Shown one piece after another: positions 3,540 through 40,111 of a stretch of DNA of 64,000 bases. The DNA lies in NCBI GenBank assembly GCA_025361645.1, contig JANYKI010000093.1, positions 1-64,000 on the forward strand, given 5' to 3'. A program made the position numbers and the translations under genes. The notes under the pieces were generated by a model. That model saw only the letters and a program-made list of their open reading frames with translations, searched no databases and had not been told where the DNA came from. The first letter of the stretch is position 1; each line of letters begins with the position of its first letter. The DNA is from Methanothrix sp. Its GTDB lineage: Archaea > Halobacteriota > Methanosarcinia > Methanotrichales > Methanotrichaceae.

Positions 3540-4031
3540 TCATCGTCTGCAACAGCCGCCCCTTCCCCCCTCCAGGGTCTCGGCGGTCTTCATGGCGGCC
3601 GCAGCCTCTTTTATCCGGCCCAGGCAGTGCAAGGCTAGCGCCGTATTATACCAGGCTCCGGAAAAATAAGCATCCTCGGCGATGGCCGCCTCAAAGCAGC
3701 GTAGTGCCTCAGTATATTTCTTCTGCTGGGCCAGCACCATGCCCTTGTTGCTCAGAGCATGCTTATGCGTTGGTGTGAGCTTAAGGACCTCTTCGAAGCA
3801 CTGCAGAGCCTCAGGGAAACGTTCCAGGCTGGCCAGGATCAAGCCCTTGTTGTTCCAGGCATCAATCAGGGTCTTGTCGATGCCAAGAGCTTGATCGTAT
3901 GCTTTGATCGCCTCTTCCCCCTGCCCGCTATTGCATAGCTCATTTCCTTTCTCCAGCCAAAAGCCGGAAGACTGCGTTTCACTGGCGGATGGGATCATGA
4001 GCACGGAAAAAGCCTGAATTGGAGAGAACAT
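3540..4031 (-). CDS. TPR-repeat protein
   Basis: Tandem TPR motifs (AIKAYDQALGIDKTLIDAWNNKGLILASLERFPEALQCFEEVLKLTP...). Confidence 0.85.
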   Translation of the reverse strand: MFSPIQAFSVLMIPSASETQSSGFWLEKGNELCNSGQGEEAIKAYDQALGIDKTLIDAWNNKGLILASLERFPEALQCFEEVLKLTPTHKHALSNKGMVLAQQKKYTEALRCFEAAIAEDAYFSGAWYNTALALHCLGRIKEAAAAMKTAETLEGGRGGCCRR

Positions 4032-4085: not shown

Positions 4086-4871
4086 CTAGTCCTGCCTCTT
4101 CGCCCTCTTGAAGGCGTCCTCCACTGCATCGCGGATGATGTAGCCGCCCTTGTGCAGCACGGTGTCGCCAAGCTCCGTGTCCCGCTCCATCGATCCTGTG
4201 CAGGGGTAAGCATGATGCGCCTCGGAGATCCTCTCTCGGATGTCGGGCTGATCCGGCTCCAGGCCCAGGAGACGCTTGGCCACAAACCAGGTGGAGCCGC
4301 AGGGCGCTGTGCGCAGCACACTGGCTGCCAGGATGTGGTCTTTTCCCGCCCGGCTCTTTTGCACCGTCACATCGATTAAGGGATCGCCAATGCCGGCCTC
4401 CGTGAGAAAGGCATAAATGTTCGGCTTGGCCGGATCTGGAACCAGGGCGCAAAAGGGCTTGGCAAAGGCCGCCTCCATCCCGAGCTCCTTAGCCTTCTCC
4501 TCCAGTTGCGTTCTCTGGCCCAACGGAAGATCGCGAGGCGACTCCGAGCCGCCCACAATGCCCTTCACACCCGCCTCCTTCAGTTTGGGAAGCAGGCCGA
4601 AGAGAATGTCGGGATGAACATTGATGACGAGAGCAATGTCTGCGGCAGGGATGTTCTGGGGCAGCAGTGGTTCCACATCATCAATGAAGTCCCCCAGGGA
4701 TGCGGGATCGGGCATCTCCACCAGGGAGACTATGTTCTGGGCATAGCCCGGCCGGACATTCCTGCACTGGGTGCAGGCATCGGCACAGGAGATGCAAAAG
4801 CCCGAATAGTTGATGAGATTGCCCACAACCCTCTCGCCAAATTCGCCATTGTAGAATACTAGCAGTTTCAA
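4086..4871 (-). CDS. DUF166 family protein of methanogens
   Basis: MKLLVFYNGEFGERVVGNLINYSGFCISCADACTQCR...; archaeal DUF166-type N-terminus with clustered Cys. Confidence 0.75.
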   Translation of the reverse strand: MKLLVFYNGEFGERVVGNLINYSGFCISCADACTQCRNVRPGYAQNIVSLVEMPDPASLGDFIDDVEPLLPQNIPAADIALVINVHPDILFGLLPKLKEAGVKGIVGGSESPRDLPLGQRTQLEEKAKELGMEAAFAKPFCALVPDPAKPNIYAFLTEAGIGDPLIDVTVQKSRAGKDHILAASVLRTAPCGSTWFVAKRLLGLEPDQPDIRERISEAHHAYPCTGSMERDTELGDTVLHKGGYIIRDAVEDAFKRAKRQD

Positions 4872-35780: not shown

Positions 35781-36461
35781 ATGGATTTGAATTTGATAAG
35801 GATGCCTACAGGAATTCCAGGTCTGGATAACATGATTGAAGGCGGTCTTCCCAGACCCTCTATCACTCTTTTAGCGGGCGATGCTGGAGCGGGTAAGACC
35901 ACTTTTTGCACTCAGTTTCTCTGCAAGGGTGCGGACCAGGGCGAGCACGGCCTATGCCTGCTGACCTTCGGCGGTCCGCCGGATCTGCTATTCAATTACG
36001 CCTCCAGTTATGAATTTGTCAAGAGTACCTATTTCGGCAAGGAGATCTGCTACCTGGAGATGGAAGAGATGGTGGAAAAAGCATGCCGATCGCAGGACTT
36101 TTTGGATATGCTGGAGAGGGAGATCGATACATTCCATCCGGCTCGAATCGTCATTGAAAACCTGTCCGTTCTGGAAGACGTTCTCAAAGACGAATACTGG
36201 CGTTTTCTTTTTAAGCTGTCTCATCTTATCAAGGCAAAAACGGTGGTGGCACTGGTGGCGGAGGATACACAGCCAGGTACCACCTATCCCGCACAGATAG
36301 CGCAAGTTGCCGATGGAATAATCCTGCTACAAAATGAAGAGATAAATTTCGCAAGGAGAAGGTCCATTGAGATTGTCAAGATGTGCAGCACATCTCATCA
36401 TTCGGGAAAGCATGCAGTAGATATATCTGTCAAAGGATTAGTTGTTTATCCAGGTTTGTAG
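35781..36461 (+). CDS. RAD55/KaiC-like RecA-superfamily ATPase
   Basis: RMPTGIPGLDNMIEGGLPRPSITLLAGDAGAGKTTFCTQFL (Walker A), ARIVIENLSVLEDV. Confidence 0.88.
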   Translation: MDLNLIRMPTGIPGLDNMIEGGLPRPSITLLAGDAGAGKTTFCTQFLCKGADQGEHGLCLLTFGGPPDLLFNYASSYEFVKSTYFGKEICYLEMEEMVEKACRSQDFLDMLEREIDTFHPARIVIENLSVLEDVLKDEYWRFLFKLSHLIKAKTVVALVAEDTQPGTTYPAQIAQVADGIILLQNEEINFARRRSIEIVKMCSTSHHSGKHAVDISVKGLVVYPGL

Positions 36462-36463
36462 AT

Positions 36464-36673
36464 ATGGCACGATCCTTGCAAGGTCTCCTGGGCCAGAAGG
36501 AATTCTGGATTTTTCTCTTCATCTTAGGGTGGGTGCTGCTCAACTGGCCTTTAATTGAACTGACGAGCGGCTACGTTATATTGGGCACGCCGGCCATATT
36601 GGTTTATATTGCCTCGATCTGGCTATTTTTCATCCTGGCTCTGTATCTCTTCGATCGGGGGAATTTTGATTGA
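36464..36673 (+). CDS. Small two-TM membrane protein translationally coupled to the downstream SLC5 protein
   Basis: MARSLQGLLGQKEFWIFLFILGWVLLNWPLIELTSGYVILGTPAILVYIASIWLFFILALYLFDRGNFD; stop overlaps downstream start (TTGA). Confidence 0.75.
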   Translation: MARSLQGLLGQKEFWIFLFILGWVLLNWPLIELTSGYVILGTPAILVYIASIWLFFILALYLFDRGNFD

Positions 36674-39600
36674 TTGGACAGAATGTCGCCTTGGTGGTAA
36701 TGGTCCTTTACCTGCTGCTGCTCTTTGGCATCGCCCGGTATGCCGACCGCCAAAAACGCTTAGGAAAGAGCATCGTGGCCAATCCCTATGTTTATGCTCT
36801 CTCTCTATGCGTATACGTCTCGGCATGGACCTTCTACGGCTCCATCGGAAGGGCGGCATCCACAGGTCTCGAGTTCTTGCCCATCTACCTGGGACCCGTC
36901 TTGGCCATGACAGTTGGCTGGATAATAATCCGAAAAATGATTCGTGTCTCAAAAGAACACCGGCTCACATCCATTAGTGATTTTATCAGCTTCCGCTATG
37001 GGCGAAGCTACGCCATAGGTGCCGTGGTGGCAGCATTGAGCCTGATCATGGTAACACCTTATGTGGCATTGCAGCTCATTGCCATCTCCACATCTCTCGA
37101 TATATTGAGCGGCTCGAACATCATATTCCTAGGCTTTAATGTGGAAAGCAAGCTGGTAGTGGCCGTTCTCCTGGGGACCTTTGCCGTAATATTCGGGGCA
37201 CGCCATCTCGATCCTATGGAGCGCCATGAGGGCCTTATCGCTGTGGTGGCCTTTGAATCACTGGTGAAGATCGTGGCCTTTCTTCTCGTGGGACTCTATG
37301 TCACCTATGGCGTCTTTTCAGGATACGGAGATATTATGAGCCGGACGATCGACCTGGCCTCAAACAACCAGACATACGAGACACTCATGGATGTAGAGCC
37401 GACGCTCTGGTTCACCTTGACTTTAGTATCCTTCTTTGCCATTCTTTTTTTGCCCAGGCAGTTTCATGTCATGGTGGTGGAAAACTCCGATGAGTTGCAT
37501 CTCAAGAAGGCCATGTGGCTCTTTCCCCTCTATCTTTTATTAATCAATATATTCGTTCCCGCCATCGCCTGGGGCGGGGTGCTCCTGAATACTCCGGGTC
37601 TGAAGGATGCCTTCGTAATAACCATACCTTACACAATGGGCTTGGATGCTCTCTCACTCTTCGTGTTCATAGGAGGCACTTCAGCAGCCACGGCCATGAT
37701 CCTGGTTGAATCCGTTGCCGTGGGCACAATGCTGCTCAACGATCTGGAGATGCCTTATATTTTGAGCCATATAAAGACGGATAAAAACCTGGCCAATATG
37801 CTTCTCAATACCAGAAGGCTGAACATACTTCTGGTCGTGCTCTTAGGATATCTCTACTCGCGTGCTGTGGCTTACCAGACACTGGCAGATATTGGAGTCG
37901 TCTCTTTTCTGGCGGCCAGTCAATTGGCTCCTGCCGTCTTGGGTGGCCTATACTGGAAGAAAGGCAACAGGAAAGGGGCCATGTCTGGCCTCATGTCAGG
38001 CTTTTTGCTCTGGGCCTACACCGCCCTCATTCCCACGGTTGCGAAAGGGAATGTCTGGCTGGTAGATTTAGTCCGGGATGGACCGTTCGGCATAGCCGCT
38101 CTTAGGCCCACCAATCTCTTCGGGCTTGATCTGGACATCTGGACCAACTCCGTATTCTGGACACTTCTCGTCAACTGCAGCCTGTATGTCCTCGTATCTT
38201 TGGCAAGCAAGCCCAGTTTGGATGAAGAGAGCAATGCGAATTGCTTCGTGGATGCCTTCCTGCAAGATAGAGCGCCCCACGACCAGGAGAAGGGAGCGAT
38301 ACACCAGGGGACGGTTGAGGAGCTGGAGGCAACGCTGGCGCACTATATCGGTGAGACGCCGGCCAGGATAGAGGTCGATGCCTACCTTGAGCTTCTCGGC
38401 ACCAGCCGGGAGAAGATCGAGGCCGGACAGCTTCGGATGCTATGGGGCCAATTTGAGAAGACGCTTACCGGTTTTGTGGGATCCTCGGCCACCAGGATGA
38501 TTGTGGAAGATCAGGTAACTGTGAAGCCGGTGATGGAAGCTGTCAAGGAAACCCTTCCAGCATATGATTTAGTGCGAGGAAAGATCTATGTCGTGCCTGA
38601 GATTGCCTATGAGGTCTTCACCGATCAGATCACCCATGGCATGGAGGGGCTGTGCATTACGCATGATGCCCCGGAGGAGGTGAGGCGACGCTGGGGCTTT
38701 AAAGAGACGCCCATCATAAAACTCTCCGATGAGAAAGGAAGCGATCGCTACATCTCGCCCAGAAATCTGCCACTCCTCTATGTGACCATAAAGTCATTCG
38801 TTGAGTCCAGCAAGAACAGCATCATTCTCATAGACAGCATCGAGCAGCTCATTAAAGAGAATGAGGGCAAAATCCCGCAAAGGGAGATACTGGACTATGT
38901 CTACCAGATGGAGCTTTTGGGCCATAAGTCACATTTGATACTGGCGGAAAGGCCAGATTTTGTCCATACGAGCATAACTATGAGCATAAATGAGGTCAAA
39001 GAGCTGCTTTTCTCATTAGGCCCCCTTTCCACCTATCTCTTCCGGGCCTTCTCCGATGCCATGCTCTCAAAGCTCGCCGATGACGTGAGAAGAGAGGCAG
39101 TTATGCAGGCCAATGAGCTAGTAGCCTCCGGGGAATTCTTTGAGACAGGCAAGCTGATGACGCCGCTTTCAGATGATTCCGTTGCCGCCTGCGAGCCGGA
39201 TATGAAAGGCGCTCTGCAGTCCAGTATATCTCTTGATATCCGCATGGACCAGGTGTTGACCCGGCGAAGCTTCTTTGTGGCAGTGAGAAGACTGGCCAGG
39301 ATCATTAAGACACACGATCCTGCCTTCGACCTCACGGCGACACTGGCAGAGCTCATGAAGAGCTATGGACGAAGTCCCTATGAGATCTCCCTCATTCCTG
39401 GGACCACCTACATTATTGCCGAGGAAAAACCACAAAAGAGCCTGGAGCTCTTCAGCGAACTGGTGAGTCACGGCATGGAAGGGCTGTGCTTGAGCCGCTA
39501 CAATCCAAAAACCCTTAATGAAAGGTATAATGTGCCGGAAGATGCAGTTATATGGCTTACGCAAAAGAGTGAGCCAGGATATAGGACAGTGGACCCGACG

Positions 39601-39849
39601 AACTTCCCCCGGCTCTCCAGTATGATCTCCGATTTCCTGGGCCGGGCCAGCTATCCCATCATCTTGCTGGAAGGAATGGGATATCTCATCACCCAGAGCA
39701 ACTACGAAACTGTGCTCCGGTTTGTCCAGTCCCAGAGAGATGAGATCGCCCTGAAGAACGCTATAATGCTGGTGCATATCGATCCACTTTCCCTGGACAC
39801 AAAGGAGCTGCATCGTTTGGGAAGCGAAATGGAGACCTTTAATAGTTAG
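36670..39849 (+). CDS. SLC5/SSF transporter-like sensor (CbrA-type N-terminus) fused to STAC-like linker and two DUF835-like domains
   Basis: YALSLCVYVSAWTFYGSIGRAASTGLEFLPIYLGP... and RLTSISDFISFRYG are CbrA/PutP-HK-like; C-terminal repeats LVRGKIYVVPE...DQITHGMEGLCITHDAPEEVRRRWGFKETPIIKLSD and LIPGTTYIIAEE...ELVSHGMEGLCLSRYNPKTLNERYNVPEDAVIWLTQK. Confidence 0.85.
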   Translation: MIGQNVALVVMVLYLLLLFGIARYADRQKRLGKSIVANPYVYALSLCVYVSAWTFYGSIGRAASTGLEFLPIYLGPVLAMTVGWIIIRKMIRVSKEHRLTSISDFISFRYGRSYAIGAVVAALSLIMVTPYVALQLIAISTSLDILSGSNIIFLGFNVESKLVVAVLLGTFAVIFGARHLDPMERHEGLIAVVAFESLVKIVAFLLVGLYVTYGVFSGYGDIMSRTIDLASNNQTYETLMDVEPTLWFTLTLVSFFAILFLPRQFHVMVVENSDELHLKKAMWLFPLYLLLINIFVPAIAWGGVLLNTPGLKDAFVITIPYTMGLDALSLFVFIGGTSAATAMILVESVAVGTMLLNDLEMPYILSHIKTDKNLANMLLNTRRLNILLVVLLGYLYSRAVAYQTLADIGVVSFLAASQLAPAVLGGLYWKKGNRKGAMSGLMSGFLLWAYTALIPTVAKGNVWLVDLVRDGPFGIAALRPTNLFGLDLDIWTNSVFWTLLVNCSLYVLVSLASKPSLDEESNANCFVDAFLQDRAPHDQEKGAIHQGTVEELEATLAHYIGETPARIEVDAYLELLGTSREKIEAGQLRMLWGQFEKTLTGFVGSSATRMIVEDQVTVKPVMEAVKETLPAYDLVRGKIYVVPEIAYEVFTDQITHGMEGLCITHDAPEEVRRRWGFKETPIIKLSDEKGSDRYISPRNLPLLYVTIKSFVESSKNSIILIDSIEQLIKENEGKIPQREILDYVYQMELLGHKSHLILAERPDFVHTSITMSINEVKELLFSLGPLSTYLFRAFSDAMLSKLADDVRREAVMQANELVASGEFFETGKLMTPLSDDSVAACEPDMKGALQSSISLDIRMDQVLTRRSFFVAVRRLARIIKTHDPAFDLTATLAELMKSYGRSPYEISLIPGTTYIIAEEKPQKSLELFSELVSHGMEGLCLSRYNPKTLNERYNVPEDAVIWLTQKSEPGYRTVDPTNFPRLSSMISDFLGRASYPIILLEGMGYLITQSNYETVLRFVQSQRDEIALKNAIMLVHIDPLSLDTKELHRLGSEMETFNS

Positions 39850-39868
39850 CTAGCCCTAATTTGATGCT

Positions 39869-40111
39869 ATGAGCGATGCAGGACTTATATTATTATTCAT
39901 AGTCATAGTCTTTGGCGCATTCTTGATCATGAGATCCCTCAAGAATTTCGTGGTTAATGCCATAATGGGGCTGGTGATACTCATTCTTGCCAATGCCGTA
40001 GCGAGTCTGGATATTGGCTATAGCTGGCTGGTGATCTTGATCTGCGGTATCGGCGGAGTTCTGGGCGCATTCCTGGTGATACTGCTCCATTTCCTGGGCT
40101 TTGGGATCTAA
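39869..40111 (+). CDS. BofA-like (pro-sigmaK processing inhibitor family) small membrane protein
   Basis: MSDAGLILLFIVIVFGAFLIMRSLKNFVVNAIMGLVILILANAVASLDIGYSWLVILICGIGGVLGAFLVILLHFLGFGI. Confidence 0.65.
   Translation: MSDAGLILLFIVIVFGAFLIMRSLKNFVVNAIMGLVILILANAVASLDIGYSWLVILICGIGGVLGAFLVILLHFLGFGI

Follow-up and report, generated by a model that had tools for sequence, protein, structure and literature searches.

Four open reading frames of one strand follow one another in the window, the stretch of 64,000 nucleotides from Methanothrix sp. (contig JANYKI010000093.1) that was analysed here as a whole. The largest of them encodes a protein of 1059 amino acids in which a SLC5 transporter domain and a STAC linker are joined to two DUF835 domains. 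All four frames, together with the overlap between the second and the third, were found at the places given in a preliminary description of this DNA. The locus is flanked by an aspartyl-tRNA-synthetase-type gene on one side and by an opposite-strand gene for an Sso10a-type wHTH protein on the other.

Table. Genes and features of the locus, with positions in the window.
Feature	Position	Strand	Evidence or remark
KaiC-family RecA-like ATPase, 226 aa, accessory gene	35781-36461	+	Pfam KaiC, E 1.4e-36
Two-TM small subunit, 69 aa, putatively CbrX-like	36464-36673	+	Present in 37/37 loci; homologue beside bacterial SLC5-STAC genes
SLC5-STAC-2x DUF835 ORF, 1059 aa, TTG start	36670-39849	+	
TTGA overlap of 4 nt: TTG start of large gene, TGA stop of small gene	36670-36673	+	Direct reading
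SLC5/SSF transporter domain, residues ~1-515	36670-38214	+	Match to 10ed_A; Pfam SSF
Codon of Lys200 (Lys196 of CbrA, filling the Na2 site)	37267-37269	+	Residue mapping to CbrA
STAC four-helix linker, residues ~545-615	38302-38514	+	10ed_A alignment; AF2 helices; G604 invariant
First DUF835, predicted inactivated KaiC fold, residues ~631-759	38560-38946	+	Pfam PF05763 at 38605-38865; Foldseek
Helical connector, less conserved, residues ~760-900	38947-39369	+	AF2 secondary structure with low pLDDT; alignment
Second DUF835, most constrained part, residues ~911-1054	39400-39831	+	Pfam at 39424-39831; AF2; dN/dS
Small membrane protein of the BofA family, 80 aa, linked in most loci	39869-40111	+	Pfam BofA

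The overlap itself is real and, as had been proposed earlier, it suggests that the 69-aa gene is translationally coupled to the large gene; overlaps of the TTGA type recur in most orthologues and in Paracoccus. The 80-aa product of the last gene, previously taken for a BofA-like small membrane protein, scores 34.7 bits with BofA (PF07441), above the gathering cut-off of 26.1 (E 2e-8). A BofA-like gene is present in 30 of 38 loci; it is missing from one genus and one further genome, and one locus runs into a contig end. Comparison of the orthologous loci revealed no response regulator or transcription factor that is constant in the neighbourhood of the large gene.

Among the PDB chains searched with phmmer, the 1059-aa protein had one convincing counterpart, the SLC5-STAC part of Pseudomonas CbrA solved by cryo-EM (10ed_A). 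The alignment spans residues 8-614 with E 1.9e-83 and 34% identity in aligned columns, and the STAC bundle is included in it; the match to Pfam SSF has an E value of 3.1e-7. The SLC5 core is thus akin to that of CbrA and not to a plain symporter, as suspected from its wording. The guess of a STAC linker behind it was equally sound: this region is helical in the AF2 model, and the glycine of the GPxxA-type STAC motif (G604) is invariant in 38/38 orthologues.

The ligand pocket was examined at nine positions of CbrA that line the histidine site or fill the Na2 site (PMC13022988). Seven of them (Y51, S53, W55, F71, Y75, F406 and K196) are kept in the window protein, the exceptions being A56T and F248S. 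The Na2-site lysine, which accompanies proton coupling in CbrA (PMC13022988), corresponds to K200 and is invariant in all 38 orthologues, in all 9 bacterial relatives and in CbrA. Both exceptions represent the state of most other bacterial SLC5-STAC proteins compared. Over the nine positions the archaeal proteins are identical to most bacterial SLC5-STAC sensors or differ from them by one Ser/Thr or Ala/Thr exchange, and they depart from CbrA at F248. Judged by these residues, the pocket is of the type seen in non-histidine bacterial SLC5-STAC relatives. CbrA transports histidine; as a ligand of the archaeal protein this amino acid is disfavoured by F248S and A56T, and these exchanges, with a pocket like that of the other bacterial sensors, indicate that the ligand is probably not histidine.

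The small two-TM protein deserves attention as a second component of the system. In Pseudomonas, CbrX is encoded upstream of CbrA and is translationally coupled to it (PMC6591292); it co-purifies with CbrA and was seen by cryo-EM as a two-helix hairpin on the SLC5 domain (PMC13022988). The 69-aa protein agrees with CbrX in position, in approximate size and in apparent topology. Its gene accompanies the large gene in every one of the 37 Methanotrichales loci with upstream sequence, and in 34 of them the two overlap by 4 nt. On plasmids of Paracoccus, Cupriavidus and Azoarcus, the nearest bacterial SLC5-STAC genes have a small ORF at the same place, which in Paracoccus likewise overlaps the SLC5-STAC gene by 4 nt. 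A profile of the archaeal small proteins scored these bacterial ORFs with 35, 33, 23, 19.3 and 19.2 bits, against 19.1 bits for the top one of 10,000 shuffles (half of them preserving local hydrophobicity) and 6.6 bits for other TM segments; the two lowest scores only match the top shuffle, and the strength of the comparison lies in Cupriavidus, Azoarcus and one Paracoccus ORF. Profile-profile alignment of the archaeal and bacterial small proteins with hhalign gave a probability of 97% (E 4e-11), and N, P, P and W positions are common to all small proteins aligned, archaeal and bacterial. A small coupled ORF was not seen upstream of the sensor gene in four more distant hybrid-kinase loci examined, and the PDB search with the small protein did not return a CbrX chain. 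Pfam families, DUF3311 and Blr among them, were considered for the 69-aa protein, with no credible match. Because the small ORFs are homologous at archaeal and bacterial loci, we read the small TM gene and the SLC5-STAC gene as a module of two genes that would have been inherited together. The 69-aa protein may accordingly be viewed as a CbrX-like subunit that arrived with this module, its likeness to CbrX being one of position and topology.

Behind the STAC linker, Pfam DUF835 (PF05763) matches the 1059-aa protein with E 4.1e-52 in two stretches, which score 129.7 and 54.6 bits at a gathering threshold of 33.1; hhalign finds the repeats homologous to each other with a probability of 99%. Both modules had been recognised beforehand, along with the lack of a kinase: at E<=1, neither HisKA nor HATPase was detected in the protein with Pfam or NCBIfam, nor PAS with Pfam. 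The AF2 model of the tail (residues 521-1059, 14 sequences) is of modest confidence, with pLDDT 66 and pTM 0.40. Its top Foldseek match is the full-length double-domain KaiC (3k0f_E, E 4.7e-6, 478 columns), with low TM-scores to KaiC of about 0.2, because the two domains are not reliably placed in the model. When modelled alone, the second DUF835 reached pLDDT 82.8 and pTM 0.81 and retrieved RAD51, FlaH/ArlH, RecA and KaiC with probabilities of ~1 and query-normalised TM-scores of about 0.45-0.58. A hidden or degenerate kinase in the tail was rejected, since no kinase profile matches and Foldseek returns KaiC/RecA folds. The P-loop is absent from the tail of the window protein, and in a single orthologue one chance motif occurs at the extreme C-terminus. 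Homology of DUF835 with the neighbouring KaiC could not be claimed from sequence profiles alone, their comparison being not significant; it is visible from the folds only. DUF835 has been labelled iKaiC and described as an output of response regulators (PMC5847659). The models thus identify DUF835 as a KaiC/RecA-fold domain devoid of the P-loop, and with this loss the predicted output of the large protein becomes two KaiC folds that have been inactivated.

Every segment of the large gene evolves with dN/dS of 0.05-0.3, and the DUF835 domains are under strong purifying selection; values for the second DUF835, which has many invariant positions, are 0.05-0.10. Constraint of this strength, together with the invariant columns, rules out a vestigial tail. 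DUF835 also serves as an output elsewhere, namely in a REC-PAS-PAS-DUF835 protein of Methanosarcinaceae. At two loci (L112:271-3082 and L110) this protein is followed by a conserved 380-aa protein without clear family, which is perhaps its partner.

The ATPase encoded upstream matches Pfam KaiC with 126.4 bits. Its Walker A P-loop is found in 23 of 24 orthologues, and the 24th has an assembly N at this place; an apparent loss of the 5' part of the gene in L072 proved to be an assembly artefact, with N inside the gene. In the window clade the segment after strand 2 reads TFGGP and lacks the Glu pair expected there in KaiC; reduced ATP hydrolysis by the adjacent KaiC is possible. The gene adjoins the module in 24 of the 37 informative loci. 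On the protein tree, its 13 absences imply five changes or more, one of them between the window and a 98%-identical sister, and the genomes without adjacent KaiC contain no relocated orthologue, while a paralogue of about 30% identity remains. One such deletion can be followed in a 3.0-Mb two-contig Methanotrichales genome (L069), where a 19-codon 3' remnant of KaiC persists before the small TM gene. With at least five losses and no relocated orthologue, KaiC is an optional part and no obligatory partner. The constant core is therefore the small TM protein and the SLC5-STAC-DUF835 gene, not a four-gene system: of the gene order proposed in the preliminary description, the pair of small TM and large gene holds in 37/37 Methanotrichales loci, whereas KaiC is repeatedly lost and BofA is not universal. 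None of the three grounds for refutation named in that description (repeats unrelated to DUF835, a degenerate kinase, a neighbourhood conserved in no relative) was borne out. What links DUF835 to the ATPase is a common fold, and possibly co-assembly.

The KaiC paralogue (G000:C126:26030-26707 in the genome of the window) is kept in 16/16 genomes tested and could partner the DUF835 tandem in general; in L117 it is flanked by replication-factor-C-like and glycogen-synthase-like genes (named by eye). Additionally, we observed a cluster (L115:865-5897, G046:C1:54364-59396) that encodes a REC protein, a PAS histidine kinase, a DUF835 protein, a PadR regulator, a KaiC ATPase and two gas-vesicle proteins. 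It is an independent linkage of DUF835 with KaiC, and perhaps controls gas vesicles.

The large protein was detected at E<=1e-30 in 49 of 50 Methanotrichales genomes, and the 50th has a fragment; the named records that carry it belong to Methanothrix and relatives. A gene that is intact across the order, with the low dN/dS given above, is real and not a product of chance. The other 190 genomes of the class yielded separate DUF835 proteins only and no SLC5-STAC relative, and in a 397-genome sample of the phylum the SLC5-STAC query found matches in Methanotrichales only. A check of conservation across Methanotrichales and Methanosarcinales had been suggested; conservation extends throughout the former, but no SLC5-STAC relative was found in the other orders sampled. 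The same query on plasmids retrieved bacterial sensor proteins with up to 44% identity. The absence of SLC5-STAC relatives elsewhere in the class and phylum sample suggests an acquisition from bacteria, and one transfer into the ancestor of Methanotrichales, with exchange of the output, would be the simplest reading. That the SLC5-STAC front end is portable follows from Azoarcus, where it carries a GGDEF-EAL output.

We favour, with a probability of about 60%, a kinase-less transceptor in which SLC5-STAC and the small subunit are served by an iKaiC tandem as output. The proton-coupled SLC5 domain with its CbrX-like subunit would bind or transport an external solute, and the STAC bundle, docked beneath the transporter, would relay its conformational state to the cytoplasmic DUF835 tandem. 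Lacking P-loops, the tandem is presumably unable to turn over ATP and would offer active KaiC-family ATPases, or other partners, a surface for docking or regulation, one such ATPase being encoded directly upstream in many lineages. The module would most likely descend from a SLC5-STAC sensor of bacteria, small subunit included, the output of this sensor having been swapped for an archaeal signalling domain. With the kinase replaced by two P-loop-less KaiC-shaped domains, the protein probably informs the signalling network of the archaeal cell about a nutrient outside. Substrate sensing had been put forward before as the function and continues to appear the most likely one; the nearest bacterial relatives (42-44% identity) are sensors, their outputs being HisKA or GGDEF-EAL. 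A role in signalling is further supported by the occurrence of DUF835 on REC-PAS proteins and, at the gas-vesicle locus, beside KaiC and a histidine kinase. The repeated loss of KaiC means that any partner would not be fixed.

The main rival inverts the flow of information: the protein would serve primarily in transport, with uptake gated by the DUF835 tandem and the KaiC ATPase in response to the cell's energy or nucleotide state. Such regulation accords with the proposal, attributed to Korycinski 2015, that STAC regulates the flow through SLC5, with the transport of histidine by CbrA itself, with the conserved pocket and proton-coupling lysine and with the P-loop retained by KaiC. We nevertheless consider it unlikely, as the closest bacterial proteins are sensors, DUF835 follows REC-PAS as an output domain in other proteins and KaiC is dispensable. 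Still less probable is a scaffold, in which the DUF835 tandem would bind partners other than KaiC (the BofA-like protein, wHTH regulators) and localise them to the membrane. Frequent loss of KaiC and linkage of the BofA-like gene in most loci would suit this explanation, but BofA is missing from a whole genus and the wHTH neighbours recur in close relatives only. An ordinary symporter with a functionless fused tail is hardly credible: although the SSF match exists, few parts of the protein are as conserved as the second DUF835, and the SLC5 core is that of transceptors.

As to the substrate, a small carboxylate such as acetate appears preferable to histidine, and a narrower version of the favoured transceptor would measure acetate and adjust acetate uptake, activation or methanogenesis. 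Practically all Methanotrichales have the protein, none of the other orders sampled does, and these acetate specialists use ACS to activate their substrate (PMC7746861). Related kinases of the CrbS type control acs, and the nucleotidyltransferase-type protein of the Paracoccus operon resembles, by annotation, a member of the CrbS/R regulon (PMC5715377). Moreover, the bacterial group other than CbrA has an equal pocket. These points make acetate a candidate; the pocket letters, however, cannot separate it from pyruvate or other ligands, the large gene adjoins no acetate gene, and the restriction to one lineage could stem from a single transfer event alone, so that acetate specificity is a tentative proposal. 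More speculative, and in our estimate improbable as a whole, is an acetate transceptor of bacterial SLC5-STAC origin whose membrane-tethered double pseudo-KaiC samples active KaiC ATPases. If true, the outside supply of acetate and the inside ATP state would be read together by one protein, and a transporter-sensor would be wired without phosphorelay.

The component parts and the SLC5-STAC transceptor framework are already known, and the swapping of SLC5-STAC outputs is not unique, the Azoarcus GGDEF-EAL version being a bacterial precedent. A kinase-free iKaiC output with retained small subunit was not described in the papers covered; the earlier view of an undescribed system may therefore hold for this combination, but not for its parts or for the framework. 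Fusions of a true transporter with a signalling domain (transceptors) have been described almost exclusively with histidine kinases. Here the same transporter, linker and small subunit are combined with a presumably non-catalytic output; sensing is thereby separated from the kinase, which offers a natural test of the signal that STAC passes on. The widespread archaeal DUF835/iKaiC domains thereby gain a defined input, a membrane transporter, in a system conserved in essentially all Methanothrix and relatives, which are major methane producers.

Among known systems, CbrXA of Pseudomonas (SLC5-STAC-PAS-HisKA-HATPase with CbrX) shares with the window protein about 600 residues of SLC5/STAC at 34% identity, the Na2-site lysine and an upstream, translationally coupled two-TM small protein. 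It differs in that two DUF835 domains take the place of PAS and kinase in the window protein, in the A56T and F248S exchanges, and in that the window system is archaeal and has no response regulator partner. The highest identity found, 42-44% over 95%, is with the SLC5-STAC kinases on Paracoccus and Cupriavidus plasmids, which also possess a homologous coupled small ORF and identical or near-identical pocket positions, but use a HisKA-HATPase output and, in Paracoccus, have a response regulator in the operon. The Paracoccus operon (L100:3735-9052, L105, L109) comprises genes for a nucleotidyltransferase-type protein, the small TM ORF, the SLC5-STAC kinase, the response regulator and an exonuclease-domain protein. 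Azoarcus sp. KH32C resembles the archaeal system in its SLC5-STAC front, in the upstream small ORF and in the replacement of the kinase by another output, which is a c-di-GMP module (GGDEF-EAL) and not KaiC-like. On its plasmid (L101:3751-7141), a small ORF of the coupled type stands with the SLC5-STAC-GGDEF-EAL gene; the annotated start of the latter at 4199 is probably too late, the true one lying near 3950.

CrbS (MxtR) and RpuS kinases, which respond to acetate and pyruvate, have the SLC5-STAC front end in common with the window protein, and a relative on Sinorhizobium meliloti pSymB, CrbS-like by arrangement, shows nearly the same pocket letters. These are hybrid kinases with REC, and no coupled small ORF was seen in the four hybrid-type loci. 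The closest other DUF835 domains, at about 30% identity, belong to the REC-PAS-DUF835 proteins of Methanosarcinaceae, which are cytosolic response regulators with a single DUF835 and no transporter. Finally, the double-domain clock protein KaiC, the top Foldseek match of the tail, has tandem RecA-like folds as well; the tail of the window protein differs from it by the missing P-loop, by its long helical connector and by being anchored in the membrane.
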